Shown: positions 6,493 to 63,925 of the stretch, piece by piece
How positions within the stretch are numbered: the stretch's first letter is position 1
Layout: every line of letters begins with the position of its first letter
IMG/VR virus record: IMGVR_UViG_3300030101_001745
Location: 37,547 to 101,546 of that record
Origin: a virus
Strand: one strand, 5' to 3'
DNA: 64,000 nucleotides
Notes under the pieces: generated by a model
Databases searched by the model: none
Told to the model about the DNA's origin: nothing
The model's input: the letters and a program-made list of their open reading frames with translations, nothing else
Program-made: the position numbers and the translations under genes

Positions 6493-6922
6493 GGAACTCA
6501 AAAAGGAGAAGGATGCTTGCTACCGTAAGGTAAGAAGCAGATACAAGAAGTGGCCTTCTGCTTATGCTTCTGGTGCATTGGTTCAATGTAGAAAGAAGGG
6601 TGCGGCTAATTGGGGTAACTCAAAAAAGAAAAAGAAAGTAAAGAAGGCAGAAGGTTGCGGTTGTGCAGAATGCGAAGAAAAGAAATCTGATGGTCTTTGG
6701 AAAGATTGGGTAAGTTGTGCATCTTGTACTGATGACAAAGAAGGAACGGAGCCGTGTGGTAGAAAGGATGCATCGAAAGGAACAAAAAGAAGATGTAGAC
6801 CAACCTGCTCTGCTTGTGAAGATTACAAGAGAAGAGGCGGAAAACCTAAGAAAAGAAAGTCTGGTACGTTTAGCAGAGAAGAAGACAAGGGACTTCGTGG
6901 TTGGTTTGAAAGGAGAGGTTAA
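6476..6922 (+). CDS. Cys- and Lys-rich protein with WFEELKK start motif
   Basis: 148 residues; overlaps the fibre gene by 17 bases. It begins MTLWFEELKKEK, a form of the Trp motif shared by many proteins of this virus. A segment around residues 20-50 (RSRYKKWPSAYASGALVQC, then GAANWG) resembles a conserved stretch I recall from marine virus proteins of unknown function. The C-terminal half carries many Cys residues in CxxC pairs (CGCAEC, CASC, CSAC) in a Lys/Arg-rich background, suggesting zinc binding and nucleic-acid contact. Placement among late genes suggests a minor virion component; function is unknown. Confidence 0.8.
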   Translation: MTLWFEELKKEKDACYRKVRSRYKKWPSAYASGALVQCRKKGAANWGNSKKKKKVKKAEGCGCAECEEKKSDGLWKDWVSCASCTDDKEGTEPCGRKDASKGTKRRCRPTCSACEDYKRRGGKPKKRKSGTFSREEDKGLRGWFERRG

Positions 6923-6923
6923 G

Positions 6924-7214
6924 ATGACTTGGGAAAAAGTAGTAAAGAAAAAATGCGGGTGTGGGCAAGACCCATGTAAAACATATGGTAGTGTAAAGAA
7001 ATACGACATAGAGAAAGGAAAGGGAGAAAGACATTTCTACATGGAAAACGGTAAACCGAAACAATACATTGGGCCTACACACAAACACCCAGATGGAACG
7101 CTAATGTCTGGTGAGAAACACGTAGAAGGTGAAAGTAAAGTTCTACAACACTTCTACGAATTAAGCGAAGATGCTTTGAGACATCTAAGTAAGGATACTA
7201 CGGAGATAAAGTGA
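6924..7214 (+). CDS. Small protein with MTWEKVVKKK start motif
   Basis: 96 residues. The start is set by the GGAGAGG site just upstream and by the tight join to the previous stop at 6922; the longer frame reaching back to 6717 would lie inside the previous gene. It begins MTWEKVVKKK followed by CGCGQDPC. The middle contains a His/Gly-rich stretch (GPTHKHPDG) that could bind metal. No family recognised. Its N-terminus matches the short Trp motif of the 48.9-59.4 kb virion genes. Confidence 0.78.
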   Translation: MTWEKVVKKKCGCGQDPCKTYGSVKKYDIEKGKGERHFYMENGKPKQYIGPTHKHPDGTLMSGEKHVEGESKVLQHFYELSEDALRHLSKDTTEIK

Positions 7215-30437: not shown

Positions 30438-30829
30438 TCGCTCATCCCCCTTTTGAAATTTGAAAGATGAAGTACGGAAGTGAAGTACCTTGGAGACTCT
30501 AACTCATCAACTCTATGAGCAACCCAAATTACTCCACCGACACTACTTATCTTCACCAACTCATACGTCTTGTCACCTACTTCAAACATGTCTTCTGTTT
30601 GTACCATAGGCACAAGACCGAAGTGCTTCGACAACTCAGACGATACTTCTTCTAGATTCTCAGCAACGTACTTTACAATCAACTGTTGCTGAATGGGAAC
30701 CTTTGCACCGACATTGACTTCTATCTTACCCGACATGTCACATACCTTACACTTGTTTCCTTCGCAAATGGGGCATGTTATCTGCGCTCCAATAGGAGCA
30801 GGAAAATTGATAGAAATCGCTCGCTTCAT
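30434..30829 (-). CDS. Zinc-finger protein (131 aa)
   Basis: CPIC and CKVC at residues about 19-30 form a zinc finger of the DnaJ-like CxxCxGxxxC type; the rest is a mixed alpha/beta domain. It overlaps both neighbours (ATGA upstream, TTGA downstream). Function unknown; neighbouring PC4-like protein suggests nucleic-acid work. Confidence 0.68.
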   Translation of the reverse strand: MKRAISINFPAPIGAQITCPICEGNKCKVCDMSGKIEVNVGAKVPIQQQLIVKYVAENLEEVSSELSKHFGLVPMVQTEDMFEVGDKTYELVKISSVGGVIWVAHRVDELESPRYFTSVLHLSNFKRGMSD

Positions 30830-31134
30830 GCAACTACCAAACCTTCTTCTTCCATTCTTTCCCAGAAACCTAGAGCATCTTGGGCGGCTTGTATAACCAT
30901 CGGCATACCATTTGTCTTTCTTTTCTTCTCAAGAAAATCTAGAAAATTCTCTAAGTATGCTTGTCCTAAACCTCTACCCCTATTGGATTCATCTACTATC
31001 CCGAAGTCTACTATTTCCCAACGAGAATCACCCTCATTGTTTATGTCTAGCCTTGCTTCGCCTGTGGCTTGACCGTCATCAGATTCCCATTCCTCATGTT
31101 GTTCAAAATCCTTCAATACGTCTTCCCAAGTCAT
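30826..31134 (-). CDS. GNAT acetyltransferase with MTWEDVLK start motif
   Basis: 102 residues from ATG 31134, which overlaps the lipoprotein stop (ATGA). The acetyl-CoA loop is seen in IVDESNRGRGLGQAYL, followed by a helix and a final FWERMEEEGL, typical of GNATs. It begins MTWEDVLKDF, the Trp motif otherwise found in the virion gene block, so it may be packaged with the particle. Substrate unknown. Confidence 0.75.
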   Translation of the reverse strand: MTWEDVLKDFEQHEEWESDDGQATGEARLDINNEGDSRWEIVDFGIVDESNRGRGLGQAYLENFLDFLEKKRKTNGMPMVIQAAQDALGFWERMEEEGLVVA

Positions 31135-48903: not shown

Positions 48904-49146
48904 ATGGTATCTAACTCATCTTGGTTTAACATTATCAAGCAAAATGATGAAGCGGGTAAAAGAGGTAGCGATAAAAAACGGGCTACCCATACAAAAGAAC
49001 AAACTACCTTGCCCCAAGAACTCCTAGATACTGCGTTATCGGAAGAACAGGTAAAAGAGATAAAGAGGCGCAATCCAAAGGTAGTTCCCGCGAAGGGAGT
49101 AGAAGAAGGAGGTAACTTGAAGCAAACTAAACTAGGTGATTATTAA
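48904..49146 (+). CDS. Small basic protein with SWFNIIK motif
   Basis: 80 residues. It begins MVSNSSWFNIIKQN, the Trp motif, followed by a Lys/Arg-rich stretch and an acidic/basic helical C-terminus. First gene of the rightward late block. Function unknown; probably a virion-associated protein by motif and place. Confidence 0.65.
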   Translation: MVSNSSWFNIIKQNDEAGKRGSDKKRATHTKEQTTLPQELLDTALSEEQVKEIKRRNPKVVPAKGVEEGGNLKQTKLGDY

Positions 49147-49277
49147 TTTCTACCTAGAAGGTGAACCTTATCTTGGGAATGGAGCAAGGTAGGAAGGTAA
49201 AATTTCGCTAGTGGCACAAAAATTACGGCCCAATTTTTGAGAATCTTTGTTTGCTCTACCAACTAACAGGTGATAAG
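49147..49277 (+). promoter_or_regulatory. Intergenic region before the next late gene
   Basis: 131 bases without a gene. CTACCT and AGGTAG (near 49150 and 49189) form an inverted repeat, and a stretch ending in ATTTTTGAG follows. It may hold a terminator plus a late promoter; no clear TATA element is evident. Confidence 0.3.
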
Positions 49278-49460
49278 ATGTCAAAAGTACCCTCAAAGAC
49301 AAGAATGAATAACGAGGCATGGTTTGACATACTCAGAATGGCGGGTGCTGTCACAAGCACCTCTTCTGGAACAAGTGCATTATTCAATAACAAAACGGGG
49401 GGCTACTCAATTGCGAACAAGAAAAAGAAGCGCAGGAAACGGCGAGATAAGGAAGGCTGA
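49278..49460 (+). CDS. Small protein with AWFDILR motif (60 aa)
   Basis: ATG 49278 has GGTGATAAG directly upstream. The N-terminus contains NEAWFDILRMAG, another Trp motif, then a Ser/Thr/Gly linker and a very Lys/Arg-rich end. The following gene continues in the +1 frame with overlap, so the two might be joined by frameshifting. Function unknown. Confidence 0.6.
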   Translation: MSKVPSKTRMNNEAWFDILRMAGAVTSTSSGTSALFNNKTGGYSIANKKKKRRKRRDKEG

Positions 49461-50670
49461 GTTAATCCCCATAACTGATGCAAGCGGGCAAATAGTGATG
49501 GTTCCGCTACCCGGTGGATTGAACGATTTAGCCAAGCGGTTGAAAAAGTGGAAAAATGCCGCAAAGAGTCTTTCTGGTGACAAGTTATTCGTAGCAAGCG
49601 GAGACAATCTCCTGAAGATAATAGAGGCTCATGGAATCACAGGTAGAACGAAGGGAGGTGGCCCCCAAGGTACTGGTGAGAGAAGCGGTAGTGCCATGCT
49701 CGATGTTCTGGATAAACTGTCAAAACCGGGTAAGAGTATGCCCGGACAGAACCTTACCGCGCTGAAGAAACTGGAAGCATTGATGAAAGAGGTAGATAGG
49801 TCAGAAAGCAATCTCAATCCACAGAACGTGATGTTCAGCAACCCCACAGATTTCAATGATGCTGGAATTACCATAGACACCGAGCCAGTTTACGGACACT
49901 ACGTTACCCCAGAGTATGTTGATAGGATAGATACGAGGGCAGATGCTCTTGGCGACAAGTTTGAGGGAAGGAATTGGGGAAAGGCCGCGCCAGAAGATTG
50001 GTACAATGGCAACAAAGGACAAGCAAAGCCTCCTATGTGGCAAGCCATGTATGGTGATGGTACTGGTGAATTCAAAAGTGAAAGCCTGTATACCATAGTA
50101 AAAGACCTCAGAGAGTCATGGGGCAAGTCAACAGGTGCGGGTGGTGGAATACCCAAGCAGAACAGAATCAAGATTCAGTCAACAGCAGGTAAGGGCAGTT
50201 GGCAGAAGGCAATCAAACTAGATGGTATTGAAGACATAGCCAATGATATAATTGACAATATCAAATCCCAGAAGAGACAGAGCAAGTACGTTCGCAGGTC
50301 TGGAACCTTGAACTGGTCTGAGGTAGCAAGCGAGTTTGAGAAGAACCCCATACCCACAGATGGTGAGAGTGACGAGGCGCAAGAACTAGCAGGTCTTAGG
50401 GAGAACATAGAATTAGATTTCATCTGGATATCATTCCCTGCTAGGAAACAAGTCAACAGACTGATGTTCCATTTCATGAAGAAGGCGAATCTGGTTCTAG
50501 ATAACGACTTGCCAAAACTAGGTACAGGTGCAGACACGCTATACCTGTTCGTATCCTTGAAACAGGAGAGAGCGCAACAAGCATCTCGACAGAGAGCAGA
50601 GGAATACAGGCAGAAGAAAGATGGGGAGAAGAACATGAAGAAGTCATGGGAGGAAATTCTCAAATGTTAA
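49408..50670 (+). CDS. Virion-region protein ending in SWEEILKC
   Basis: About 420 residues if TTG 49408 is used (GGGGGG eight bases upstream); ATG 49498 would give 390. No family recognised. It has an N-terminal Lys-rich helix region, a long central part with Gly/Pro/Asn, and a charged C-terminus that ends MKKSWEEILKC, a C-terminal copy of the Trp motif. It may be a capsid-internal or head-tail protein. A +1 shift from the 49278 gene could supply an N-terminal copy too. Confidence 0.65.
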   Translation, partial: QLRTRKRSAGNGEIRKAELIPITDASGQIVMVPLPGGLNDLAKRLKKWKNAAKSLSGDKLFVASGDNLLKIIEAHGITGRTKGGGPQGTGERSGSAMLDVLDKLSKPGKSMPGQNLTALKKLEALMKEVDRSESNLNPQNVMFSNPTDFNDAGITIDTEPVYGHYVTPEYVDRIDTRADALGDKFEGRNWGKAAPEDWYNGNKGQAKPPMWQAMYGDGTGEFKSESLYTIVKDLRESWGKSTGAGGGIPKQNRIKIQSTAGKGSWQKAIKLDGIEDIANDIIDNIKSQKRQSKYVRRSGTLNWSEVASEFEKNPIPTDGESDEAQELAGLRENIELDFIWISFPARKQVNRLMFHFMKKANLVLDNDLPKLGTGADTLYLFVSLKQERAQQASRQRAEEYRQKKDGEKNMKKSWEEILKC

Positions 50671-50750
50671 CTTGCTGTGATATGAAGATATCAAGAGAGA
50701 ATCTTGCAATCACCGTATGTCCATATTGTGGTGGCGGTGGTAGAAAATGA
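50664..50750 (+). CDS. Zinc-knuckle microprotein (28 aa)
   Basis: ATG 50664 overlaps the previous stop, has GGAGG nine bases upstream, and its TGA overlaps the next ATG (ATGA). CC and CPYCG give four Cys for one zinc, followed by a Gly/Arg/Lys end. Short, but the coupling on both sides is convincing. Confidence 0.55.
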   Translation: MLTCCDMKISRENLAITVCPYCGGGGRK

Positions 50751-52168
50751 GTTGGATGACAGTGTTGAAACAACCTGATAATTTCGATGAGCAGATGGCT
50801 AATCTAAAACAACGTCAACAACAGACCAAGAACATAACAAATACACGTTTGGCTAACATACAGCAAAATAGATTAAATCAAGCATATCAATCTGGAAATC
50901 AACAGACTCAGAATGTGCTTCCGCAAGTTACTGCAACTGGAACTGAGGAACAAGGCAAAGCACAAGATGACAACTTCGCGTTCTTTGAGCAACAACAAGC
51001 CGAGACAGACGCGGCTAGAGGAAAAGCCAACGCAGAGAAGCAAAAGAAACAAGCACAACTAGCGAGACAGAAAGACAAGGAAGCGGCTAACAGACGTAGA
51101 TTGATGGAAGGTGCTAAGGCCAAGGTAGGACAACAAGCCTCTAGGTTACTAGGCGAACCTTCGTTACCGAATGTGGAAACGGGAGCAAGAGTTGCAGGTT
51201 TACCCGGCAAGGTAATTCCAGCAGTTGGAAGTGTCATGGATGCTGTGCGCCCTAGTAGTATTGCTTCGGCAGTAAATACAGTAACTGGTGGTGCGGCAAA
51301 TAGGGTTACCAAACCGGGAAGAGAAAAGATAGGAAGACTTGCTAGTGCGGTAGGACAGAGAGTAGCAGACCCTGCGACTAGATTAGCAAGTGGTCAACAA
51401 CTCAGTGAAGAAAAGCAGAAGGAGCAAGAGAGAATACAATCAGAGATGGGAGATTACGCTACGGATGCTAGGGCAAGGAGCATTCTAACTAGGAATGTCA
51501 ATCCAGACGGCACTAGGAGAAAGAAGGATGAGATGAACATAACTGCTGAAGATGAGAAAGTCATAGCAGAGATTCAGAGAATAGAGAGCATACTAGAAGA
51601 CCCAGATAAATTGGCGGCAGGTAATCCAAAAACGGGTAGACCTTATTCTGATGCTGAGATAGAGGCAATGAGATTAAAGATAGAGAACTTGTATGGTGGA
51701 GGAATTAGCGACCCGAAAACAGGTAAGGCACTTCCCATACCAACGCAGAAGAAAAGGAAGTCATCTGCCGCGAGTAATTGGTTTAGCCGATTACTGTACG
51801 GAGACAGAACCAATCCAAAAGCAACAAAGGAAGTAACAAAAATGAAGAAAGTAGATTCAGACCAAGAGTACGACCACTACCGAGTGAACAAGCAACCGCC
51901 TGTTCCACCACTAGCAGAACCTCCGGGTGCGCCACCTCCAGTGGACATGTCTGGAATGGACCCTGCTTCAATGGGGATAGGAATGCCAATAATTCCACAG
52001 ACACCTGCACCTGCGCCTAACATGTCACAAGGGCCACCAGACCCAGAGACTGGAGAACCCAGAACAAGGGGAAAGGAATTCACGGTTGACCCAGAAGAGG
52101 AAGCCGATGACGAAATGGAAACTAGCATGAACAAGAGTGAGTGGTTCAATACATTGAAGACAGAGTGA
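50747..52168 (+). CDS. Virion-region protein with Trp motif at both ends
   Basis: 473 residues. Begins MSWMTVLKQP and ends KSEWFNTLKTE; an internal SNWFSRLL near residue 345 resembles both. The first 120 residues are Gln/Ala/Lys coiled coil, the middle Ala/Gly/Arg rich (possible membrane-active helix AVGSVMDAV), and residues about 385-430 are Pro/Gly/Met rich. Such composition fits a scaffold or ejected internal protein. No enzyme motif seen. Confidence 0.68.
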   Translation: MSWMTVLKQPDNFDEQMANLKQRQQQTKNITNTRLANIQQNRLNQAYQSGNQQTQNVLPQVTATGTEEQGKAQDDNFAFFEQQQAETDAARGKANAEKQKKQAQLARQKDKEAANRRRLMEGAKAKVGQQASRLLGEPSLPNVETGARVAGLPGKVIPAVGSVMDAVRPSSIASAVNTVTGGAANRVTKPGREKIGRLASAVGQRVADPATRLASGQQLSEEKQKEQERIQSEMGDYATDARARSILTRNVNPDGTRRKKDEMNITAEDEKVIAEIQRIESILEDPDKLAAGNPKTGRPYSDAEIEAMRLKIENLYGGGISDPKTGKALPIPTQKKRKSSAASNWFSRLLYGDRTNPKATKEVTKMKKVDSDQEYDHYRVNKQPPVPPLAEPPGAPPPVDMSGMDPASMGIGMPIIPQTPAPAPNMSQGPPDPETGEPRTRGKEFTVDPEEEADDEMETSMNKSEWFNTLKTE

Positions 52169-52172
52169 TTAC

Positions 52173-52829
52173 ATGATTACCAGAAAGCGATGTCAACTCT
52201 GCCAGCATGAGAATCGTGACCAACTTGAGGCAGACCTAGATGACATGGTGATTACTGCTGATGAGTTAGATAGATTGGAGAACTGGCCTAGTGGGACATC
52301 TGCCAAGCACCAGAGGAACCACATGACAGGATACACCAAGTCTGCGAATCCGAAGTGTGTACTCTGTACTTCCGAGAGTCGCTCTGAGTTGGAAACGAGA
52401 ATTCACTCTGGCGAAATCTCACCGTCTGAGGTTGCTGATTTCCTAGGTTGCACAGACGACCAAGTGTTCAGGCACATGACACATCACCTACAACCATTGG
52501 TGCAACAATCTGCGGCGAACCTAATCGCACAGAAGGAAGTCAATGAGATAGATACTCTAAGCAACAACATCAACAGGCTTGAGGCCAAGGTGGATGAGTT
52601 GTTCGCACAGGATGCTCTTGACCCCAAGTACATTGACTCGCTAACCAAGTTGGCAAAGGAAATTCGTGAGAGCCTCAAGTACCTCATGGAGTTCAAGGGC
52701 AAGTTAGTCCACAAGAGACAGGACACAGTTATCGTTCACCAGATGCAAGTAATCAAGGAGGTTCTAGCACAGAACCATCCTGATGTCTGGTTGGATGTGA
52801 GGAAGCAGATGGAGAGTCAGATGCAATGA
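52173..52829 (+). CDS. Terminase small subunit candidate, twin zinc/HTH modules
   Basis: 218 residues. Two similar modules start with CQLC and CVLC and end with His pairs (HQRNHM and HMTHH), about 70 residues apart, each with a helix-turn-helix-like segment (EVADFLGCTDDQVFRH). A coiled coil follows (SNNINRLEAKVDELF). Duplicated DNA-binding units plus an oligomerising coil fit a small terminase subunit, and TerL lies 6 kb downstream. Assignment is inference. Confidence 0.55.
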   Translation: MITRKRCQLCQHENRDQLEADLDDMVITADELDRLENWPSGTSAKHQRNHMTGYTKSANPKCVLCTSESRSELETRIHSGEISPSEVADFLGCTDDQVFRHMTHHLQPLVQQSAANLIAQKEVNEIDTLSNNINRLEAKVDELFAQDALDPKYIDSLTKLAKEIRESLKYLMEFKGKLVHKRQDTVIVHQMQVIKEVLAQNHPDVWLDVRKQMESQMQ

Positions 52830-53311
52830 GTTGGCAAACCATATTGAAGAAGCCATACTCCGTTGGTGGAACAGAAACTCCCTTTTTATATCAAGGAAGC
52901 CAATCAGAAGAAGATACGGGCTACTGGACACCTTACTTTAATCAAGCCGTAGTTTATGCTGTCTACGGTTCTGAAGCCGACACAAAAAGACCTATGAAAG
53001 ATACAGGCAAACCTACAATAAAGCAAGCAAAAGAAACTGAAGAAGACATTGACTTGGAAGATGACCCGGAATATACAATGGCGGGTATGGGTAAGTTGGA
53101 CTATACTTTGGTTTCGGATAAAGTGATTAAGGAATCAATAGATGATTTGATTGAACAACTAGAGTTTGTCGGTTATGATGAATTTGGGAGTAATGGGGTT
53201 AACTACGCACCTGTTCAACAGTTCAATCAATTAATGGAAACTACTGCAAAGTTCTATTCAAACGAAGAGAGAATACAACACGCTGAGAAAATGAAGGAGA
53301 AGATGCAATGA
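52826..53311 (+). CDS. Virion-region protein with MSWQTILKK start
   Basis: 161 residues, ATGA overlap with the previous gene. After the Trp motif comes an aromatic Gly/Tyr region (GYWTPYFNQAVVYAVYG), an acidic linker and a helical C-terminus. No family recognised. Its stop overlaps the next ATG. Confidence 0.7.
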   Translation: MSWQTILKKPYSVGGTETPFLYQGSQSEEDTGYWTPYFNQAVVYAVYGSEADTKRPMKDTGKPTIKQAKETEEDIDLEDDPEYTMAGMGKLDYTLVSDKVIKESIDDLIEQLEFVGYDEFGSNGVNYAPVQQFNQLMETTAKFYSNEERIQHAEKMKEKMQ

Positions 53312-53571
53312 GTTGGGAATCTATCATAAAGAAAAAATCTGATTTAACACTACCGAGAGGAATTCAAAAAGTTCTACAAGCAGAAGAAAAAGAATATGAT
53401 AGAGGTCTACTTGTTAAACTTTTGAAAAATGGAGGTTATGAAGTTGCATATTGGTATGACGAGCATAAGCCATATCCAGTTGAGGTTCTAGTTGATGGTA
53501 AATCTATCAAGAAGGATGCTAAGAAAGTGACTTTGAAGTTCCATCCTGAATTAAAGGAGAAATCAAAATGA
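53308..53571 (+). CDS. Virion-region protein with MSWESIIKK start (87 aa)
   Basis: After MSWESIIKKK the chain is alpha/beta (YDRGLLVKLLKNGGYEVAYW, VEVLVDGKSI) and Lys-rich. Coupled upstream (ATGA). Function unknown; N-terminus as in its neighbours. Confidence 0.7.
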   Translation: MSWESIIKKKSDLTLPRGIQKVLQAEEKEYDRGLLVKLLKNGGYEVAYWYDEHKPYPVEVLVDGKSIKKDAKKVTLKFHPELKEKSK

Positions 53572-53630
53572 TATTTACAACTAAGATGGATTTTGAGACA
53601 TGGTATAACCAAGGAGAGATATACAGATGA
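53568..53630 (+). CDS. Possible 20-residue peptide
   Basis: ATG 53568 overlaps the previous stop (ATGA) and TGA 53628 overlaps the next ATG. The peptide (starting MIFTTKMDFETWYNQGE) has a Trp near its end. The arrangement imitates real coupled genes but the length makes it doubtful; it may only carry the ribosome site of the next gene. Confidence 0.25.
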   Translation: MIFTTKMDFETWYNQGEIYR

Positions 53631-53914
53631 AATGGAAAGAAGTGATAAAGAAGAAAGGATTGCCAAAGGATTTCGTACCTAGTGATGACTTTAGGGCAGA
53701 TGCAAAGAGATTAGGAATTGCTGTGCGACCAACTCCGTTAACTGATGATGAAATTGAAGAACACATCATAGGGCGGTCTAAGACACCACAGGAGAGGGTA
53801 TCTACAACACCATCTACAGGTCAAGATGAAGAAGCCGCCAAGAGAACCAAGGAAAAGGAAGCGGAACTTCTGGCTAGAATACAAGAAAGGAATAAGAAGG
53901 CAAGGCAGGAATAG
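53627..53914 (+). CDS. Virion-region protein with MKWKEVIKKK start (95 aa)
   Basis: Begins MKWKEVIKKKG and continues as a charged, mostly helical protein with a C-terminal coiled coil (EAAKRTKEKEAELLARIQER). AAGGAG precedes the ATG. No family recognised. Confidence 0.7.
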   Translation: MKWKEVIKKKGLPKDFVPSDDFRADAKRLGIAVRPTPLTDDEIEEHIIGRSKTPQERVSTTPSTGQDEEAAKRTKEKEAELLARIQERNKKARQE

Positions 53915-53916
53915 AT

Positions 53917-55818
53917 ATGTCATGGCAAGACCTACTTAGGGCAGATATAGAATCTGAGAAAACCCCCAAGAAGGTTGACCCTGAAAAGTCAGTTAACAGT
54001 TGGAGAAGAACATCCACTAAATCTAGAATCTTTAGAGTTCTTAGTGGGTTAGAACGTGAACGTTTCAAGTATGGGAAGAAGGAAGACCCCAAGGATAAGG
54101 GCGTTGAGACATTAGATGATGCAGGATTCATTCAAGCAATAAAGGACAGGATGCTTGACCTTCGTTCTGTAAAGAGAGTGTTGGAAAAAGAGATGAGCAA
54201 GTTCAACGACATGAGCGATGAGGAATTCCTAGAGTATAACGATGAAGATATGCTGATGGATGATGAGTGGAGAGCCAACTACAAACAGGCGATGGATGCG
54301 ATAAAGAATCTAACTAGTGGTGGTAGAACAATATCTCCAGAGGTATCGCAACTTGCTAGGAAGTTCGTCAATGGGGATACCCAACCTCTTGTAGATAGGA
54401 TGAAGCAAGCACTTGAAGAGAAACTAGATACTGGAGAAAGAAAGTATCACCGATTCTTGAAAGACCTAAGAGCATGGGAGAACAAGAATGACGAACTGTT
54501 GGATAAGGTAGAGGAACTAGCGAACGAGGAAATAACTGCCTTGTTTGAGAAAGCGGGTTTCTCAGAAGCGATGCAAGCAGAGAGTCAGCAGATTGGTGAC
54601 ATCACAGGACAGTTCGCAGTAAGATACTTGGAGGAAGTGGGTAACAAGGTAGGCTCTTCTGGTAGAAGTTCCAAATTTGCAGGTAGAACTGAGTTTTTGC
54701 CATTTAGGAAGGGGTTGTCATTAGCAGGTAAGGATGATTTCTTCAATGACATATTCATTAGAGACAAAATTCTGTCTCCGGGTATGATTTACATCCTAGA
54801 GAATGAGCAACTAGGTAATATTGACAATATCGGTAGAAAAAGTAGGGCAGAGAACAATGTTTTTGCCAATTTGAAGAGAGAATATGAAAACAATCCAGAA
54901 GGAGAGGGGCTTTCGGCTCTTGCAAGGCTCTTCGGAGAAAATATCACCGATAAAAAGAAGTTTTTACAGGAATTGAGTAAAAATGCGCCTCGTTTGAATG
55001 AATTCAAAGCAATGGTCGAGTCTCAGAGGTTCTCGATACCAGAAAATGACTACGAAGCACTAATTTTAGATGAGAGTGAGGTGGATACTGAGTCCATTAG
55101 TCGTTCTTCCCTGCGAAAATTGAAAAATTCCGAATTTTCACACGTTTTGGAAGGTAAATCGAGAGATGAGGTGTTTGAGTTCCTTTCTCCCATGCAAAAA
55201 GTCCTAAAAAAGATGGAAAAAAGCGGGGAGGGCGGAAGATACGTTCTAAATCCAGAAGCAGACACCATCGAAGAAGACAAAGATGCAATTTCTGCTCTTT
55301 TTTCTGAATCAATCGAGTCTCAGAGAGAAAAAATGGCTCAAGAGGCATTGAACCTACTAGATAAGACTGGTTCAAGAGGCGCAAGAACCTTTGAGGAAAC
55401 AACCACGGTTCCAACTAGGTACTGGAAGAAGATAAAGAGGAATATCAAGGAGAGTGACCCAACGAGTCTGAGTCTTGGTAAGATTATCGTAGTTTTATCT
55501 ACTTTGGAGAAGGCAACCCTACAAAGCAAGGAAGTCGAGCAAGCCGCTAAGGAATATTTTGGATTCTTGCAATTCGTAGCAGACGAAGGTGATGATGAAG
55601 ATACCAATGCGGAAATCATCGAACAGAACAGGAAAGAAGTGGAAGAGAAGAAGGAAGCACTTGAAACTGCATTAAGTAGCAAGTATTCGACCATCAGAAG
55701 TAAATTTCTAGAGATGCTTCGTATAAAGATGAATAGAATCTTAGCAAATCCACAAAAATATCCAACAAAAGGACAATTTAACATGGCTAGTTGGCTGAAG
55801 ACACAGGTGGCAGTATGA
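53917..55818 (+). CDS. Large virion-region protein with MSWQDLLRAD start
   Basis: 633 residues, very charged, predicted almost entirely helical (Lys/Glu/Arg), with several coiled coils. After the Trp motif comes an Arg/Ser-rich region. It ends FNMASWLKTQVAV, another Trp-Leu-Lys segment. No catalytic motif recognised. A large helical protein upstream of the terminase and portal could be an internal, ejected or scaffold protein. Confidence 0.68.
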   Translation: MSWQDLLRADIESEKTPKKVDPEKSVNSWRRTSTKSRIFRVLSGLERERFKYGKKEDPKDKGVETLDDAGFIQAIKDRMLDLRSVKRVLEKEMSKFNDMSDEEFLEYNDEDMLMDDEWRANYKQAMDAIKNLTSGGRTISPEVSQLARKFVNGDTQPLVDRMKQALEEKLDTGERKYHRFLKDLRAWENKNDELLDKVEELANEEITALFEKAGFSEAMQAESQQIGDITGQFAVRYLEEVGNKVGSSGRSSKFAGRTEFLPFRKGLSLAGKDDFFNDIFIRDKILSPGMIYILENEQLGNIDNIGRKSRAENNVFANLKREYENNPEGEGLSALARLFGENITDKKKFLQELSKNAPRLNEFKAMVESQRFSIPENDYEALILDESEVDTESISRSSLRKLKNSEFSHVLEGKSRDEVFEFLSPMQKVLKKMEKSGEGGRYVLNPEADTIEEDKDAISALFSESIESQREKMAQEALNLLDKTGSRGARTFEETTTVPTRYWKKIKRNIKESDPTSLSLGKIIVVLSTLEKATLQSKEVEQAAKEYFGFLQFVADEGDDEDTNAEIIEQNRKEVEEKKEALETALSSKYSTIRSKFLEMLRIKMNRILANPQKYPTKGQFNMASWLKTQVAV

Positions 55819-58800
55819 CGGTTGATGAATCAGAGTTTGCTATGTGGTTGAAGTCTCCAATGGATGACATTGAAGATTTTTATCTCGCTCAGATAGGGAA
55901 GGACTATCTGGAAGGAGGTAGCAAGTACAATCCTAGGAACATCAAGCAGGATTTACCAAAAGGACAGGAGTTGACTGGTGACAATCTAGATTCAGTATTC
56001 CAAGCACAGATTGGTGAACAGATAGACGGTGAACTAGATGTTCTCATGGAGAATAAGAAAAGGGAATACAAGAGGGAGAAAGACCTACTTTACAGATATC
56101 TTATAGATGATAGCAACGGTTTCACTTCTACGAAAAAGGATGAGAGCAAACTGATTCTCTCTGCTGATGGGGATTACACCGTTCAGCCACATATTGGGGA
56201 GACTGTGAGAGATATACAATCAAAGGGACTTTTGTTCGATGACTTCAAAGATGCGATTAGGCCACTTTTGAAAACCACCTTACGTGGGACGAACATCGGT
56301 AAGAGCCTCTTTGAAGAACAACTGAGATATGCAGTTACTCAGTTATCTGGCGAGAAGGGAATGAAGGCAGGAGATTTGACAAGTTCCTTTGAGGGAGATG
56401 TACAAGCAGTCACAAGAGTTCTTGGTAGGTTCATCAATTTGGTTTCTAGCAAACCAATGAGCGTTTCAGAAAGAAAGCAGGTAATGCAAGGTGAGAGGGA
56501 TGCTAGTGGTTTCGTATACAGGCCGGAGGACAAGACACAGGCAAGGCAACATCTACGAGTTATGGAAGACCAAACTTCATCTCAGTTGGAACCTCTGACA
56601 AATCAGATTAGAGAATTCATAGAAGAGGATGAAGAAGCAGATATCAAAATTACCAGAGCAAATATATCTGGTGAGTATCTCATTGGTGACTTGAACCTAG
56701 CAGACCTTGAGAGCAGAGATGAGATTTACAAGTATTGGGAAGAAGTAGCCACCAAGGACTTCAAGAATCTCCAAGTCAAGTATAATGATTTGAGAAAGGC
56801 TTTCCTCAAGCACAAGGATATCCTCATTGGTGAAGGAGATAATATCAATGAACCTCTAAGCAAACTGATAGATGAGTACCTTGAGTTCGATGCTAAATTT
56901 GAATCTGCATATGATGATGGTATGAATTACGTCTTGCCATTCAAGGCATCACCTATGCAAGCCGCCGCTAAAGATTCATCTGATAAGGTGAGGACTCTCT
57001 TCGATACATTCCTACGAGACATGAATCTGGTAGATACAGGGTCACAGACCGAGTTGGACATGGAGACTCTACGAGAGAGACTTCTAGAAATAGGTGCAGT
57101 AGAGAGAGATGAAACAAGAACTACTGTGACTCAGAGAGGACAAGGAGAAGATGAGACTACTTCTGCATCAGCAAGAACCGAGATAGGGACTGACGGCAAA
57201 AGGCCCATCGAAGACGCGGGCGCACAGTACAGGTCTGAAAGACAGGCTGAGAAAGCAAGATACCTTGAGAGTATAGGAGAAACAGTTAGAGAAATAGATG
57301 AGTTGATAGAAGCCAAAGAAAAGTTTGACTTTGACGCATTGGCAGAAGATGTTGACCCACTATTCGCATATGCATTCGCCAAGGATGGTAGTGCATTCAA
57401 GAACACCGCCATCCTAGAGCGCGAACTAAACAAACTCAAGATAGGATTGGAAACCAACATCTTCGGTTTGGACTTGGATTATGACGAGAAGATTACAGAT
57501 TGGATAGAGTCTCTTTCCAAGGCCGCTACACAAGGAGATACTAGACAGGTATACTACCTTCCACTATCTGCTACCCTAGAAGAAATAATACTAGGAAAGG
57601 GCAGGGAATCAAAGGGCAAGGCTCTGTTCAGAATCATAGAAGCAGTATCTCCTAGAAGACTGGAAACTAACAAGAAGAACATCAGCCAATTCTTGGAACT
57701 TATAGCATCGTTCGTGGAGAAGGGAGACAGAAGGTCTGGCCCATCCAGTAGCGTTAGAACGAAGACCAGTCAACAAGCAATTACTACAGACCCAATGGGA
57801 ATAGACTCCATCTTCCCAGCCAGAAGCAATGACGAATCTTATCTCAATGACATACAAACCGTGAGAAGAGAATTCGATGACCTTCTAGATGCAGTTATTG
57901 ATTACTATGTCATACCCATTGAGGGAATGTACATGCCTTTCGATGATGACAGTTCATTCATTAGTGAACAAACAAGTGGGGGTGTGTTTGGTGCATTGAC
58001 GAAGGGAATGGTAGATGATGGACTGTTCGCAGTCATGGCGAAGGAGAAGGAAGATGGAACGTTCGTTGATAGAGAAGACATCATTGATTTCGCTGATGTC
58101 TTGAAAACTATGTCTGAACCTAGTTTCGGAGAAAACGCGAAAAATTTCAAGTTAATGCTAACAGAGTTACAGAAGGATGTAATGTCTAGAGTATATGGTC
58201 AAAGTCCCAAATCAACATTAGGGGAGAAGATGAAGGAAGAGTTAGGTTCGTACTTCTTCCATATGGCAAAGAGAAACAATGTCGATGACTATGAGAACAT
58301 ACTTCTTTGGAACACCCCTGCAAGAGTATGGAAGGACAGGCACAAGGAGAATCCAAGGAAAGCCGCCGCACCCTTCATCTCATTTGTTAATCACGTTAGA
58401 AGAAATGCTGGAGGTTCTGGCAAGGGTTCCAAGAGTGGAACTGGTAGTGACAAGAGTAGATACTTGAGAGAAAAAGGAAGAGGTAGTGATGACTCTGAAC
58501 TTAGAGAGGCACTACAGGTCTTCAATGAAATCAGAGAGAGATTCAACATTACGAAGAGTATCGAAGAGATGAGGATTCTTGCCGCACATGATGGAATAAG
58601 AAAGATGTTAGGTAAGCCAGTCTACTATGGAACATCCAATCTAGATGACTTCGGACATATAGCCAAGGCACAAGATACGCTAGTGAAGTCTTACAATGTA
58701 GACATTTCAGCAGTAGAGATTGAGAACATTGTTAATGAATTTGATTCTATGGAGTCACTTGCTAAGAAATATGGAGTTCCTTCTGATAGTGTCTATTATC

Positions 58801-58820
58801 TCAAAGCGAATTTCAGGTGA
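55815..58820 (+). CDS. Very large helical virion-region protein (1001 aa)
   Basis: ATG 55815 overlaps the previous stop (ATGA) and replaces an in-frame TTG at 55791. The start contains FAMWLKSPMDD, again with Trp-Leu-Lys. The chain is acidic, helical and without Cys, with a Gly/Ser-rich linker near residue 880 and an HTH-like end (MESLAKKYGVPSDSVYYLK). The size suggests an internal core, tape-measure-like or ejected protein. No enzyme motif recognised. Confidence 0.68.
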   Translation: MTVDESEFAMWLKSPMDDIEDFYLAQIGKDYLEGGSKYNPRNIKQDLPKGQELTGDNLDSVFQAQIGEQIDGELDVLMENKKREYKREKDLLYRYLIDDSNGFTSTKKDESKLILSADGDYTVQPHIGETVRDIQSKGLLFDDFKDAIRPLLKTTLRGTNIGKSLFEEQLRYAVTQLSGEKGMKAGDLTSSFEGDVQAVTRVLGRFINLVSSKPMSVSERKQVMQGERDASGFVYRPEDKTQARQHLRVMEDQTSSQLEPLTNQIREFIEEDEEADIKITRANISGEYLIGDLNLADLESRDEIYKYWEEVATKDFKNLQVKYNDLRKAFLKHKDILIGEGDNINEPLSKLIDEYLEFDAKFESAYDDGMNYVLPFKASPMQAAAKDSSDKVRTLFDTFLRDMNLVDTGSQTELDMETLRERLLEIGAVERDETRTTVTQRGQGEDETTSASARTEIGTDGKRPIEDAGAQYRSERQAEKARYLESIGETVREIDELIEAKEKFDFDALAEDVDPLFAYAFAKDGSAFKNTAILERELNKLKIGLETNIFGLDLDYDEKITDWIESLSKAATQGDTRQVYYLPLSATLEEIILGKGRESKGKALFRIIEAVSPRRLETNKKNISQFLELIASFVEKGDRRSGPSSSVRTKTSQQAITTDPMGIDSIFPARSNDESYLNDIQTVRREFDDLLDAVIDYYVIPIEGMYMPFDDDSSFISEQTSGGVFGALTKGMVDDGLFAVMAKEKEDGTFVDREDIIDFADVLKTMSEPSFGENAKNFKLMLTELQKDVMSRVYGQSPKSTLGEKMKEELGSYFFHMAKRNNVDDYENILLWNTPARVWKDRHKENPRKAAAPFISFVNHVRRNAGGSGKGSKSGTGSDKSRYLREKGRGSDDSELREALQVFNEIRERFNITKSIEEMRILAAHDGIRKMLGKPVYYGTSNLDDFGHIAKAQDTLVKSYNVDISAVEIENIVNEFDSMESLAKKYGVPSDSVYYLKANFR

Positions 58821-58824
58821 TTAG

Positions 58825-59364
58825 TTGATTAGAAAATTCCATCCAAGACTGAGAGATTTGTCCCAAGGACAAGAACAGGTAGATGTTCAGATTGGCTCAG
58901 AGGAAGACATGAAGGAATTGTGGGATGCAAGTAATCCAGACATGCAACATGAGATGCGTTCTAATGACAAGTGGAAGTACCCAGTAGAAAATTGGTTTGG
59001 GACAATTGTTAGAGAAGGTGACAAGAGTAGACTCGTATCGGTAATAGGACACGCAGTTAGAGAGGGTAAGGAAGGTAAACCATACGCATACTTCGGTGGG
59101 GCAAAGACACATCCTGACTATCGAGGTAGGGGGTTGATGAGGGGCATACGAGAAAAGGCACTAGAAGGAATTCGTGGGATGCCGAGAATTGCAGGTTTCT
59201 CTACCATGAGACAAAAATCTGGACTTACATTGGACAAGCCAGAAACTGATGAGGTAATTCCAGATGATGTCTTGGCGTTCATGAATGAGAGAATCAAGCA
59301 CCTAGAGAACGTAGATGATTGGGGTGTGTCAAAGTGGATGCAGGTGTTGAGAAGACATGTCTGA
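58825..59364 (+). CDS. GNAT acetyltransferase with C-terminal Trp motif
   Basis: 179 residues from TTG 58825, with GGTGA six bases upstream. The acetyl-CoA loop is HPDYRGRGLMRGI, preceded by a strand (AYFGGAKTH) and followed by a helix, as in GNATs. The end reads VSKWMQVLRR, similar to the Trp motif of the neighbours. A late-gene acetyltransferase bearing this tag may be carried in the particle. Substrate unknown. The next gene starts eight bases before its stop. Confidence 0.75.
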   Translation: MIRKFHPRLRDLSQGQEQVDVQIGSEEDMKELWDASNPDMQHEMRSNDKWKYPVENWFGTIVREGDKSRLVSVIGHAVREGKEGKPYAYFGGAKTHPDYRGRGLMRGIREKALEGIRGMPRIAGFSTMRQKSGLTLDKPETDEVIPDDVLAFMNERIKHLENVDDWGVSKWMQVLRRHV

Positions 59365-60796
59365 TATGGAAGGTTTAGATTTCGTTTCAGAAATGGATAT
59401 GGAGATATCCAAGACATCGTTTCCCTACTTCTTCCAGAACGTTTTGGGAATGATGTTTCCAAAGTATATGGAAGAGTGGTTGGAAACCATGCAAGGTACA
59501 GATAGAACAGTCATTGTATGTAGTCGTGACCATGGAAAATCTGTCTTCATGCATTGTTGGGTAGTATGGAATCTAGTATTCCAAGAACCTCCATATCAGA
59601 TGCTATACATCTCATCGAACCAGAAGCAGACTCTAGTTCACATGAGGGAGATTGACAGATACTTCAATCACCCATCTCTTAAGAAATACAGACCAAGTAG
59701 AGGATGGGCTATTGGTAACATCCAACTAACCAATGGTAACGCGATTCTAGAGCGTTCCGTTGGTTCTCAGATTCGTGGCCTTCACCCACAGGAAATTATC
59801 ATTGACGACCCTTTGAAGGAGTTTAGTCTCGCAGGTATTCAGCGAGTTACGGATTGGTTCTTTGGTGATATGATACCGACACTACATCATACATCTAATC
59901 TCAGAATGATTGGAACCCCTTTCACATACACAGATATCTTCGCGCAGTTAGAAGACAACCAAGCCTACACTGTTAGAAAGTATCCGTGTTTGAATTCCTT
60001 GAATGAACCATTGTGGCCGGAACGCTGGGACTACGATGCGCTAATGCAAAGAAAGGCTGAGATAGGTTCTTTGAAGTTTACAAGAGAGTACCTTTGTGTC
60101 CCTATTTCCACTGGAACTGCATTGTTCAATCCTGAATTTGTAGAGAAATGTAAGAATAAGGATTACGTGTTAAAATTAGGTCATAGAAAAGATAAGGGCT
60201 ACAAGTATTATGTTGGTGTTGACCCAGCGATATCAACAGATGGTGACTACAATGTAATCACTGTGTTGGAAGTAGATGAGAACAAGAACAAGACTATAGT
60301 TCACATAGATAGAGCGAAGAACGTTGAGTTTAGAGAAAACATAGAGAAGATAAGATTGATTGGACAGATATTCCAACCAGAAGAGATTCTCTATGAAACT
60401 AATACATTTGCCAAAGCATTTACACAGGAACTGAGAAGCATCTCCGATTTGAATATAAGAGATTTCAACACAACTAGAAAGAACAAGCAAGAGATAATTC
60501 TCGCATTGCAAATGAACATAGAAAATGAAAAGTTGAATTTTCCGTATGGTGATGCCGCAAGTAGACGGATTAGTAACATGATAGTAGAGGAACTGTCTAT
60601 GTTCTCCATTACTCACTCTGGTAAATTTGAAGGTGTGGGAGCGCACGATGATTTGGTTATGAGTCTCGCTTTAGCCAATGCCGCATCTCAACATCAAGGT
60701 GAGGTTTTCATGTTATTAGATGACATGGACATCTTTGAAGACCCCACAAGAACAATTAACAATCCCCGTAACGGAATACTTGGGTTGAACTTCTAG
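59357..60796 (+). CDS. terL: Terminase large subunit
   Basis: 479 residues. ATPase: Walker A variant CSRDHGKS at 55-62, Walker B EIIIDDP near 146-152, and a coupling motif IGTPFTY. Nuclease (RNase H fold): GVDPAIS with its Asp, an acidic YETN strand and a final AHDDLVMSLALA. These are the full set for a DNA-packaging motor of tailed viruses. It translocates and cuts concatemeric DNA through the portal encoded at 62276. Confidence 0.92.
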   Translation: MSDMEGLDFVSEMDMEISKTSFPYFFQNVLGMMFPKYMEEWLETMQGTDRTVIVCSRDHGKSVFMHCWVVWNLVFQEPPYQMLYISSNQKQTLVHMREIDRYFNHPSLKKYRPSRGWAIGNIQLTNGNAILERSVGSQIRGLHPQEIIIDDPLKEFSLAGIQRVTDWFFGDMIPTLHHTSNLRMIGTPFTYTDIFAQLEDNQAYTVRKYPCLNSLNEPLWPERWDYDALMQRKAEIGSLKFTREYLCVPISTGTALFNPEFVEKCKNKDYVLKLGHRKDKGYKYYVGVDPAISTDGDYNVITVLEVDENKNKTIVHIDRAKNVEFRENIEKIRLIGQIFQPEEILYETNTFAKAFTQELRSISDLNIRDFNTTRKNKQEIILALQMNIENEKLNFPYGDAASRRISNMIVEELSMFSITHSGKFEGVGAHDDLVMSLALANAASQHQGEVFMLLDDMDIFEDPTRTINNPRNGILGLNF

Positions 60797-60807: not shown

Positions 60808-62274
60808 ATAGGCGTTAAAGGTGATAAATTCAGACAAGCGGCACAACTTGCTGATGAACAAGAAGCGTTGGAGCAAGAACAACAGAATCTAATTGACGAC
60901 TTAGATGGTACTCAGAAGCAATGGCTTCTTTCAGTTTCACTAGATGACCATCTTTCTATTGAGAAAAACTTTGCTAGGGAATTTGAGATATCACTAACAG
61001 ATGCAAGAAAGATGTTGAAGAATTCAGTTAACAAGTATGAGATAGAGGGACAGGACATTCCTCAGATGATTAAGAGTCTCAGAAAATACAGAAGGTCATT
61101 GAAAGGCGAACCAAGACAAGCAATCACGAAATCAATTGATGGTTTGATTGAGGCATACTCAGACCATTTGGACAAATCAATAGATTCCATTTATTGGATA
61201 GCCAAGTACAAGCCCGTACTAAAGGAGATGAATTGTAGTGAAGACAATCTCCTGAAACTATCAAAGATTCAAGATGTAGCCACTAGAAGGGAATTGGTAG
61301 ACGTTCTTTGTAAGTATTGGGAAGACAGGCAAGACTTCAACATGGTAGAATATCAGAAGGGATATGGAGAGTTAAGCAAGTCGATGACTGCATCTAAGAG
61401 AGAGTTCAAGCAGATTATCAAGAATCATATTCATCGTGAGAATCAGAAGGATGTCTTAGCAGATTACATAGTAAAGTCGGTTTCAGAGGAACCCGGCATT
61501 TCTTCTAGACAGATACATGAGAGACTTCCTAAGAATCTATTCAAGAAATCTAGTCCAACTATCATCTCAAAGATAGCGAAGGTCAATAACATAACACAGG
61601 TAGATGGTGCATTCTACAAGTTATCAGATGATATCAAGAAAGACATCTATGCCTATACTGCCGCCTTCATAGATTCGGATGGATACATAACAATGGATAG
61701 GAACTTCAATCCTAGAGTTGGACTGGTTGCTACAGGAGATAGAGGCAAGGCATTCATGATGGAGATGCACAAGTCTCTTGGATGTGGCAGATTACACCTA
61801 GACCAGAAATCACCACAAGATACTAGACCAGTTAACAGGCTGAACTTCTACTCTGCGGCTGATGTCACAGAGTTACTAACAAAGTGTCTTCCACACTTCA
61901 AGATGAAGAAGGGCAATGCGGAGATACTTCTTGAATTAGTTAGAATGAAGAAGTCTCACAAAAAGGCCGATTGGTACAAGCAGAGAAGAGAGGAACTGTT
62001 CAAGTTGATGAAGTACGAGAACCATAAAGACCATGTTGGCTTCAACTGGTCAGAGTTTGATATTGATGTCAATAGCATAGAGAAACTCTATGGTAATTCT
62101 AAGATGAACGAAATGGATAAGATAGAAGGTATCTTGAAGTCGTCTGATGTGGATGATGCCATAGACGACTTGGAAGAGATTGCTGAAGAGCATGATTTAT
62201 CCGAGGATGAATGGAGTTCAGTAGATGATGCATCGGATTATCTCTTTGAACACAAAGTAATGGAGAAGGAGTGA
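60808..62274 (+). CDS. LAGLIDADG-domain protein between TerL and portal
   Basis: 488 residues if translation starts at ATA 60808, which has GGGGTGA at ideal spacing; the first standard start in frame is TTG 60868 with no site. The N-terminal 200 residues are helical and charged, then a winged-helix-like part (EEPGISSRQIHERL). A LAGLIDADG domain follows (AAFIDSDGYI, LGCGRLHL, LTKCLPHF), with the catalytic Asp kept. The acidic C-terminus is coiled. It may be a homing endonuclease fused to, or recruited as, a packaging or head protein. Confidence 0.7.
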   Translation: MGVKGDKFRQAAQLADEQEALEQEQQNLIDDLDGTQKQWLLSVSLDDHLSIEKNFAREFEISLTDARKMLKNSVNKYEIEGQDIPQMIKSLRKYRRSLKGEPRQAITKSIDGLIEAYSDHLDKSIDSIYWIAKYKPVLKEMNCSEDNLLKLSKIQDVATRRELVDVLCKYWEDRQDFNMVEYQKGYGELSKSMTASKREFKQIIKNHIHRENQKDVLADYIVKSVSEEPGISSRQIHERLPKNLFKKSSPTIISKIAKVNNITQVDGAFYKLSDDIKKDIYAYTAAFIDSDGYITMDRNFNPRVGLVATGDRGKAFMMEMHKSLGCGRLHLDQKSPQDTRPVNRLNFYSAADVTELLTKCLPHFKMKKGNAEILLELVRMKKSHKKADWYKQRREELFKLMKYENHKDHVGFNWSEFDIDVNSIEKLYGNSKMNEMDKIEGILKSSDVDDAIDDLEEIAEEHDLSEDEWSSVDDASDYLFEHKVMEKE

Positions 62275-62275
62275 C

Positions 62276-63925
62276 ATGGTAGAAGAGAAGAGAAGATTCA
62301 GCATATTCAATTTGTTTAGGCAATCAACGCCTAAACCACAGGACAGGACAATATACAATCCGGGAATTCAAGAAAAAGACACATCTTATTTTCTAACGAG
62401 TCCAGTCATATACTCACTAGCAAAGCAATCCACAATAGTCAGGACTTGCATCACCCAACTAAAGCAAGAGATATTCCGAAGGGGATACAAGTGGGAAGAA
62501 GCATTTGTTCTCAAGTGTGGTGATTGTGGTGAGAAGCATGAGAGTCCAGTCAAGAAATGTAAGTCATGTGGTTCTGCAAACTTACAGAAGCCAGACAAAG
62601 CGCAATTAGATTATGCTCATAAATTCCTAGAAGGATACGTCAACAAGTCCGAACAATTATTCATTGACGTTCTGAAAGAACTAGAGGATGACTTGAACAT
62701 AATGGATGATGCATACTTAGTGCTAGTAAAGGAATACTACATGGATAACACCAATTGCATCAAGATGCACAGAATAAAGGAATTGTATCGAGGTGACCCT
62801 GTAACTATGCACATCTATTCAAATGAGGTTGGTGAAAGGGGAGTAAAGGGATTCACATGTCTAAAACACAGGAATCACATTTCCGAAGAAGCATCCGACC
62901 TTTGCGAACACTGTAATTCTGCTTTACATGCTGTGCATTATGTCAACAGGGCAAATGGTGAAGAGCAGTATTTCATAGAAGGAGAGGTCGTACACTTCAG
63001 CAAGTATTCACCATCTAGGCTGTATGGTGTCTCACCGATTCTTACTCTCTGGAACATGGTAACGACCTTGATGGCAATGGAGAACTACGTTAACTCATCA
63101 TACACCAAGGCTAGAATGCCAAGAGGATTGTTGGCAGTACAAACCAGAAACATAGATTCGATGAAGTCGTTCTGGCGTAGTGTAAAGGAGAAGATGGAAG
63201 TTGACCCTCACTTTATTCCAGTCATGGGCGTAGAAGCAGAGAACGGCAAAGGTTCTGTCGAGTGGGTCAAATTCATGGACAGTTTGAAGGAGATGGATTA
63301 CATTGCCGTCAAAGACGAACTCCGAGATAGAATCTCAGCATTCTACGGTGTGAGTAAAATCTTCATGGCAGACAACTCCGCAAGTGGTGGATTAAACAAC
63401 GAGGGTATGCAGATACTAGTAACCAATCGAGCAGTAGAGATGGCTCAGACTATCTGGAACAACTATGTGTTTCCCTTCATGGTCAAGCAGTTTGGAATTA
63501 CAGACTGGACTCTCAAGTTACCACCTTCCGAAGAAGAGGATGAAATTGCTAAGTTGAGGAAGAGGGAGATTGAGGTTAACGTTGCGGCGGCAATCAAGAA
63601 CCTAGGATTTGAGGTTGACATGGATGATGAAGGTAGATTCAACTACTTCAAGCCAGAACCAAAAGAACAAGAAGGTGCTAAGGGCGAGGAAGATTCACCA
63701 ATAGAACTAGACCCATACGCAGGTACTAACATTGACCAATCACAACTAGGACAGATGATGGAGTCTGGTAACAAGCCAACAATGGCAGAGGCAGGACAAC
63801 CCGCAGAGGTAAAATCAAGAAACAAGCCATCTATGAACAAAGGCCCAGACAAGAGATTTAGCGGATTACCTAGAGAAGCAGGTAATGAAAACGTGGATAA
63901 AAGGACAGAGAGGCGAGTCGGTTGA
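62276..63925 (+). CDS. Portal protein with inserted zinc ribbons
   Basis: 549 residues. The pattern SPVIYSLAKQSTIVRTCITQL, then EVVHFSKYSPSRLYGVSPIL, and the wing/stem segment ISAFYGVSKIFMADNSASGG with a downstream helix (QTIWNNYVFPFM) fits HK97/SPP1-type portal proteins. Two Cys clusters (CGDCG/CKSCG near 82-100 and a C...CEHC pair near 200-220) are zinc ribbons not usual in portals. A disordered acidic/basic C-terminus follows. It should form the dodecameric DNA entry ring. Confidence 0.82.
   Translation: MVEEKRRFSIFNLFRQSTPKPQDRTIYNPGIQEKDTSYFLTSPVIYSLAKQSTIVRTCITQLKQEIFRRGYKWEEAFVLKCGDCGEKHESPVKKCKSCGSANLQKPDKAQLDYAHKFLEGYVNKSEQLFIDVLKELEDDLNIMDDAYLVLVKEYYMDNTNCIKMHRIKELYRGDPVTMHIYSNEVGERGVKGFTCLKHRNHISEEASDLCEHCNSALHAVHYVNRANGEEQYFIEGEVVHFSKYSPSRLYGVSPILTLWNMVTTLMAMENYVNSSYTKARMPRGLLAVQTRNIDSMKSFWRSVKEKMEVDPHFIPVMGVEAENGKGSVEWVKFMDSLKEMDYIAVKDELRDRISAFYGVSKIFMADNSASGGLNNEGMQILVTNRAVEMAQTIWNNYVFPFMVKQFGITDWTLKLPPSEEEDEIAKLRKREIEVNVAAAIKNLGFEVDMDDEGRFNYFKPEPKEQEGAKGEEDSPIELDPYAGTNIDQSQLGQMMESGNKPTMAEAGQPAEVKSRNKPSMNKGPDKRFSGLPREAGNENVDKRTERRVG

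Follow-up and report, generated by a model that had tools for sequence, protein, structure and literature searches.

Why do so many proteins encoded around the head genes of an uncultured virus, otherwise unlike one another, begin or end with the same short tryptophan-containing peptide? The question is raised by a 64,000-nucleotide stretch of DNA (the window), which comprises bases 37,547-101,546 of the 101,546-bp tailed-virus record IMGVR_UViG_3300030101_001745. A first-pass annotation of the window had listed several such ends and proposed that a short amphipathic helix sorts the proteins into the procapsid. The observation is real, strong, lineage-wide and larger than that annotation stated. 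From sequence, we read the motif M-[STN]-W-x-[DEN]-[IV]-[LIV]-K as a probable capsid-loading tag (probability about 0.7). By analogy, its role would most likely be head loading before DNA entry, as phage T4 does with a different label of its own.

The analysis covers 80 relatives anchored on the gene for the terminase large subunit (TerL), as well as 12 near-complete genomes (eleven relatives added) with a total of 1375 predicted proteins. In 291 non-redundant N-terminal tags, the motif is M-[S 55%, N 11%, T 10%]-W-[F,E,K,Q]-[D,E,N]-[I 65%, V 24%]-[L 61%, I 18%, V 18%]-K, and the information drops to background right after the lysine. When 375 non-redundant M-x-W starts are picked regardless of the remaining motif, 315 have the hydrophobic pair; position 8 of these is K in 285 and R in 14, and in 11 of the other 16 the K comes one residue later. 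All peptides listed by the first-pass annotation are present in the sequence, and those at 6924 and 31134 are good matches, but LWFEELKK (6476) falls off the motif because its first hydrophobic position is E.

The tag carriers form ~200 families across the loci sampled, 103 of them singletons, and are unrelated apart from the tag, as had been claimed: an alignment of 148 tagged representatives has a mean column identity of 3% and the consensus MSWxxILK. Searches of these representatives against Pfam and PHROGs leave nearly all of them unknown, with isolated PAP2, zinc-ribbon, DUF5754 and EF-hand matches, and PDB profile searches with three queries (A3, A7 and A8) give no convincing match.

Of the 552 motif occurrences in loci surrounding TerL, 499 lie no more than 10 residues from the N-terminus or 8 from the C-terminus. 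The 12 genomes contain 125 N-terminal matches vs. 1.7 expected from the internal rate, which excludes a chance origin of the terminal motif, and 14 C-terminal matches vs. 1.5 expected. Tagged genes, of which each genome has 5 to 18, are also confined almost entirely to the head region: they make up 135 of the 443 genes located within -17.5 to +10.5 kb of TerL vs. 4 of 932 elsewhere (Fisher p = 2e-67, a descriptive value since these limits were set after the distribution was seen). Counts in 5-kb bins, which do not depend on that choice, agree: tags rise from -20 kb, peak at -10 to -5 kb (59 of 96 genes) and reach +10 kb from TerL. The next bin, +10 to +15 kb, where the protease and the major capsid protein (MCP) are encoded, has none among 60 genes; two of 79 are tagged at +15 to +20 kb, and none beyond. 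At 30% in the head region and 0.4% elsewhere, the motif is not equally frequent in non-virion genes, one of two conditions that the first-pass annotation had named as refuting its proposal.

The same picture emerges from a separate clade, which was reached via a scaffold with 57% identity to the first one and has 39 non-redundant motif tags. As a check of specificity, 2.9 million viral contigs were scanned at the DNA level for the motif only. Among the matches listed, 72 of 76 loci encode relatives of this virus group, and the other four are without any predicted gene starting with the tag.

The core of the motif recurs in the head machinery itself. The protease-scaffold fusion protein ends in [MIL]-[ST]-W-[GDS]-[DE]-[ILV]-H-x-[LIF], behind a poorly conserved linker, and this tail fits [ST]-W-x-[DE]-[ILV]-H in all 12 genomes. 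Of 45 distinct tails, six deviate from the strict pattern, five of these seemingly being truncated. Most tails of the second clade read M-[DN]-W-[SN]-[DE]-I-H-K-M, and W-x-x-I is kept in 29 of 30 distinct ones, with H next in nearly all. A 75-amino-acid (aa) head protein has the C-terminus M-[DS]-W-[DES]-[DE]-I. A conserved terminal W-x-[DE]-[ILV] is found in just three of 59 core families, namely: the protease-scaffold, the 75-aa protein and a 194-aa protein (window 52245-52829), possibly the small terminase subunit. The last has VWLDVRKQME near its C-terminus and keeps W-x-[DE]-[ILV] in 12 of 12 genomes; it could be a third motif bearer or a coincidence. Since tag and scaffold tail have the core M-[SD]-W-x-[DE]-I in common, we propose that cargo uses the docking site of that tail.

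The presence of the core in both the scaffold and the 75-aa protein would also suit a docking peptide used in head assembly, for the scaffold core or the portal vertex, with carriers that are structural or scaffold parts and mostly leave or are degraded at maturation. The 109-aa tagged family would make a suitable core protein: it occurs in most loci, is lysine-rich and is predicted by AlphaFold to be helical (mean predicted local distance difference test score, pLDDT, of 81), with the tag as a low-confidence short helix and with no known fold found for the family. However, a pool of rapidly replaced families, half of them singletons, together with two GNAT-type acetyltransferases, is unlike a fixed set of scaffold parts, and we regard this alternative as unlikely.

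A target other than the head, be it a membrane or complex of the host, part of the tail or a degradation pathway, with carriers lying near the head genes merely as late genes, is improbable. The carrier at 31134 sits among replication genes, which would fit such a target and which also limits the first-pass description of the carriers as virion-region proteins, a description that otherwise holds by gene order (TerL, portal, protease, MCP). Moreover, the head localization of the carriers is putative. On the other hand, the genes from MCP onward, which belong to the tail and are presumably late too, are almost untagged, and the motif core recurs at the C-terminus of the scaffold.

The tag is conserved at the level of the protein. 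The relatives aligned in the 633-aa family share 16-21% identity with the window protein, and of just three invariant columns two are W3 and L7. The C-terminal W never varies in the 390-aa family, whose relatives show 21-28% identity to the window protein. Bodies less than 22% identical next to an invariant W3 and L7 indicate that the tag is under strong selection. They also count against the view that the carriers descend as paralogues from one family, too diverged in their bodies to be recognized, the tag being a relic of descent or of 5′-end recombination with no targeting role.

The acetyltransferases bear on the same point. PF00583 is detected in 8 of 31 members of the GNAT family encoded upstream of TerL (best 2.8e-8); the window member itself matches weakly (PF13527, 0.0039), and the second GNAT-type protein of the window matches PF00583 at 4.7e-4, just above the cut-off. 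In most lineages of the TerL-upstream family, the C-terminus bears the tag or a less strict version of it. A clade of three relatives is instead tagged at the N-terminus; it has 100/100 support and is nested among the C-tagged members, and the GNAT homologue of G013 has the same N-terminal start as that clade. The earlier suggestion that the tag works at either end of the chain finds support in this one protein family. Such a position switch is not simple descent, and we consider the paralogue view very improbable even though a fixed serine codon (see below) suggests that many tags come from one founder sequence. As a separate feature of this family, a Cys-rich basic domain that is a gene of its own in the window (7216-7485) is fused to the GNAT protein, across the tag, in L016 (7354-8142) and in G004.

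The codons of the tag for D, E, I, V, L and K vary much as they do in the rest of the same genes. Together with the position switch, this freedom of synonymous codons identifies the tag, as read from sequence, as a portable protein signal. Ser2 differs in that it is encoded by AGT in 96% of tags vs. 62% of other second-codon serines, which suggests either common descent of many tags or an effect of start context or DNA; AGC is never seen at this position and makes up ~11% at other second-codon serines. A translation-start or other DNA- or RNA-level element, to which the AGT bias and the strong G-rich ribosome-binding sites of tagged genes would point, is rejected as hardly credible, given the freely varying I, L, V, K and D codons and the motif's occurrence at C-termini and behind extra N-terminal residues.

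To return to the capsid-loading tag, we propose the following series of events. W at position i and the hydrophobic residues [IV] at i+3 and [LIV] at i+4 would lie together on one face of a short amphipathic helix. This face would bind the site in the procapsid interior that is used by the scaffold tail (M-[SD]-W-x-[DE]-I-H-x-[LM]), located on MCP or within the scaffold core, such that any protein with a tag at a free end would be co-assembled as cargo. The [IV]-[LI]-K end of an N-terminal tag may then be processed by the S78 maturation protease, freeing the cargo from the shell. Finally, cargo that includes GNAT acetyltransferases would stay inside the head after maturation and probably accompany the DNA into the cell. 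The first-pass idea of sorting into the procapsid fits both the gene neighbourhood and the match to the protease-scaffold tail; sorting itself, like packaging, the docking partner, cleavage and injection, is what we infer from them. The picture as a whole is of an end-independent address tag that mimics the C-terminal tail of the virus's own scaffold in a widespread lineage of ocean archaeal viruses: ~8 codons at either end would make any gene product virion cargo, and each virus would deliver ~5-18 tagged proteins, drawn from a pool of ~200+ families including acetyltransferases, into its archaeal host along with the DNA. In this full form it falls slightly short of an even chance.

Cleavage of N-terminal tags after the K is possible, and we hold it more tentatively still. 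The end of the tag, [IV]-[LI]-K, resembles the [IL]-[LM]-K-[SA] of MCP, the protease and the 75-aa protein, which are the only three of the 59 core families with a conserved [ILVM]-[LM]-K-[SA]. In MCP, this element is LLK-[SA] at ~28 residues from the start, with the K invariant in 30 sequences; in the protease, it sits in a segment that is possibly part of the fold. F-S-I-L-K-S-D and F-D-I-L-K, at the edges of the protease domain, were set aside as cleavage sites since such segments can belong to the protease fold. In some tagged families, one residue is inserted between the W-x-x-[IV] part and the L-K end, as if two elements had been combined.

Several points weigh against the proposal. The residue after the K of the tag is free, and not limited to S or A as in MCP. 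In addition, a C-terminal tag cut after its K would stay on the cargo, and cleavage therefore cannot be general. The likeness to the scaffold tail extends over a six-residue core, the tail being without the L-K end, and an AlphaFold model of the natural scaffold tail with MCP as a read-through (A6) reached a pLDDT of 35, which is uninformative on docking. The cargo status of the tagged proteins is itself deduced from gene neighbourhood and the scaffold-tail match. Outside the head region there are four tagged genes, in addition to the uncalled one at 6924. Lastly, no tag-like ends were seen in the head regions of the cultured halovirus relatives HVTV-1 and HCTV-1, which were thus rejected as cultured models, leaving no known one.

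The tagged genes of the record are given in Table 1, together with two untagged head genes. Beside them, the window encodes a 468-aa protein (60868-62274) whose C-terminus resembles a separate 52-aa tagged protein of the relatives (MNWFNIVKKKPVDEAIDDLEEVAD...); here it is fused and untagged.

Table 1. Tagged genes, with the terminase and portal genes; positions are those of the window unless a locus is named.
Feature	Position	Strand	Tag and remarks
80-aa protein MVSNSSWFNIIK	48904..49146	+	N-terminal, SSWFNIIK; W-to-K codons 48922-48939
Small basic protein	49305..49460	+	N-terminal, MNNEAWFDILR; tag codons 49320-49337; start codon uncertain
390-aa protein	49498..50670	+	C-terminal, SWEEILKC; tag codons 50647-50664
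473-aa protein	50747..52168	+	Both ends: MSWMTVLK (50747-50770) and SEWFNTLKTE (W-to-K codons 52142-52159)
161-aa protein	52826..53311	+	N-terminal, MSWQTILK
87-aa protein	53308..53571	+	N-terminal, MSWESIIK
95-aa protein	53627..53914	+	N-terminal, MKWKEVIK
633-aa protein	53917..55818	+	N-terminal, MSWQDLLR
GNAT-type acetyltransferase, just upstream of TerL	58825..59364	+	C-terminal, SKWMQVLRRHV; tag codons 59335-59352
96-aa protein, outside head region	6924..7214	+	N-terminal, MTWEKVVK
Second GNAT-type protein, among replication genes	30826..31134	-	N-terminal, MTWEDVLK
Protein starting MTLWFEELKK	6476..6922	+	First-pass candidate; no strict motif fit
Three further head genes, other end of record	L001: 122, 2730, 3079		MEWKEILR, MGWEDIIK, MSWQSILK
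TerL	59357..60796	+	Untagged; anchor of head region; identity confirmed
Portal protein	62276..63925	+	Untagged; identity confirmed

Gene calls made in this analysis span 93% of the window. In the relatives, gene order runs on from the portal end of the window into the other end of the record, which encodes an ATP-dependent DNA ligase, a Peptidase_S78 prohead protease fused to a scaffold-like C-terminal part (PF04586, 2e-10) and an SU10-type HK97-fold MCP (PF17236 SU10_MCP, 1e-8); the protease and MCP genes are adjacent, beside tagged genes. The ligase gene (PF01068, L001:4458-7034) immediately precedes that of the protease-scaffold, within the block of head genes, in 12 of 12 genomes, which is an odd location for a replication or repair enzyme. 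In the tail region, a single open frame of 3472 codons extends over -3926..6492 of the record relative to the window. The replication half includes a two-part PolB, the RFC small subunit, a B12-type ribonucleotide reductase and a UvrD helicase.

Magrovirales, viruses of marine group II (MGII) archaea, are described as having genomes of 90-100 kb with a two-part PolB, the RFC small subunit, a capsid maturation protease, an HK97-type MCP, TerL, a portal protein and an ATP-dependent ligase (PMC10768690), and the record agrees with this description in size and gene content. By its genes, the virus is thus probably magrovirus-like with an archaeal host; no classified member of Magrovirales (e.g. 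ON649702) turned up among the phage-collection matches. The only matches in cellular genome contigs are three stray ones in a metagenome-assembled genome (MAG) of Maricaulis sp. IN14 (L225-L227), which encode the protease-scaffold of this virus group. These contigs are probably mis-binned virus DNA, and Maricaulis was set aside as a host, there being just three of them in one MAG. In HVTV-1 and HCTV-1 (L219 and L220), a 1210-1313-aa protein annotated as a zeta toxin lies between portal and protease, in place of the tagged genes. We found no earlier description of the motif in the open-access literature on magroviruses, subscription papers being outside that search.

If the tag does load capsids, the head-region genes of unknown function in uncultured ocean archaeal viruses would become a readable list of predicted virion cargo, obtained from sequence alone, and what archaeal tailed viruses inject besides DNA would become testable. 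Furthermore, T4-like phages and this lineage of archaeal viruses would seem to have acquired cargo loading by a short terminal peptide independently of each other, and engineered capsids could make use of a loading tag of eight residues that fits either protein end.

Several known systems resemble the one proposed here in part. Scaffolding proteins of the P22 and herpesvirus types have a C-terminal coat-binding segment. The scaffold of the present viruses, with its short conserved motif behind a variable linker, is built as would be expected for such a tail; it differs from those scaffolds in that the same core would be reused on cargo, MCP binding being putative here. In the giant phages SPN3US and phiKZ, N-terminal propeptides are believed to direct proteins to the inner head, and the prohead protease cuts many of these proteins (PMC5694885). 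Those propeptides are mostly longer than 100 residues, as compared with eight residues here. The cargo-loading peptides of encapsulins are described (PMC10960027, PMC8346489) as short sequences on unrelated enzymes that load an HK97-fold shell. The likeness to the present tag, namely a short peptide on unrelated proteins, is one of description. Encapsulins are also cellular compartments without scaffold, protease or packaged genome.

In T4, internal proteins carry an N-terminal propeptide of 10-19 residues, the capsid-targeting sequence (CTS), and targeting of IPIII is directed by residues 4 and 7, its processing by residues 8 and 10 (PMC9026906). IpII and IpIII in the T4 record start with MKTYQEFIAE, in which Y4, F7 and I8 share the i, i+3, i+4 aromatic-hydrophobic-hydrophobic spacing of W3, I6 and L7 of the present tag. 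Like the CTS of IPI-III and Alt, the tag is a short N-terminal peptide on otherwise unrelated proteins, in a variable set of cargo genes and with a prohead protease present. T4 cargo includes Alt, an enzyme acting on the host, and the carriers here include GNAT enzymes. Unlike the CTS, the tag is a W-based sequence that ends in K and not in E, is used at either terminus, has far more carrier families and belongs to an archaeal-type lineage; it also resembles the C-terminal tail of the virus's own scaffold, and its cleavage is only putative. The different sequence and the existence of C-terminal carriers speak against homology to the CTS and against use at the N-terminus only. Given these differences in sequence, terminus, last residue and lineage, the tag would work like the CTS of T4 and yet not be homologous to it.

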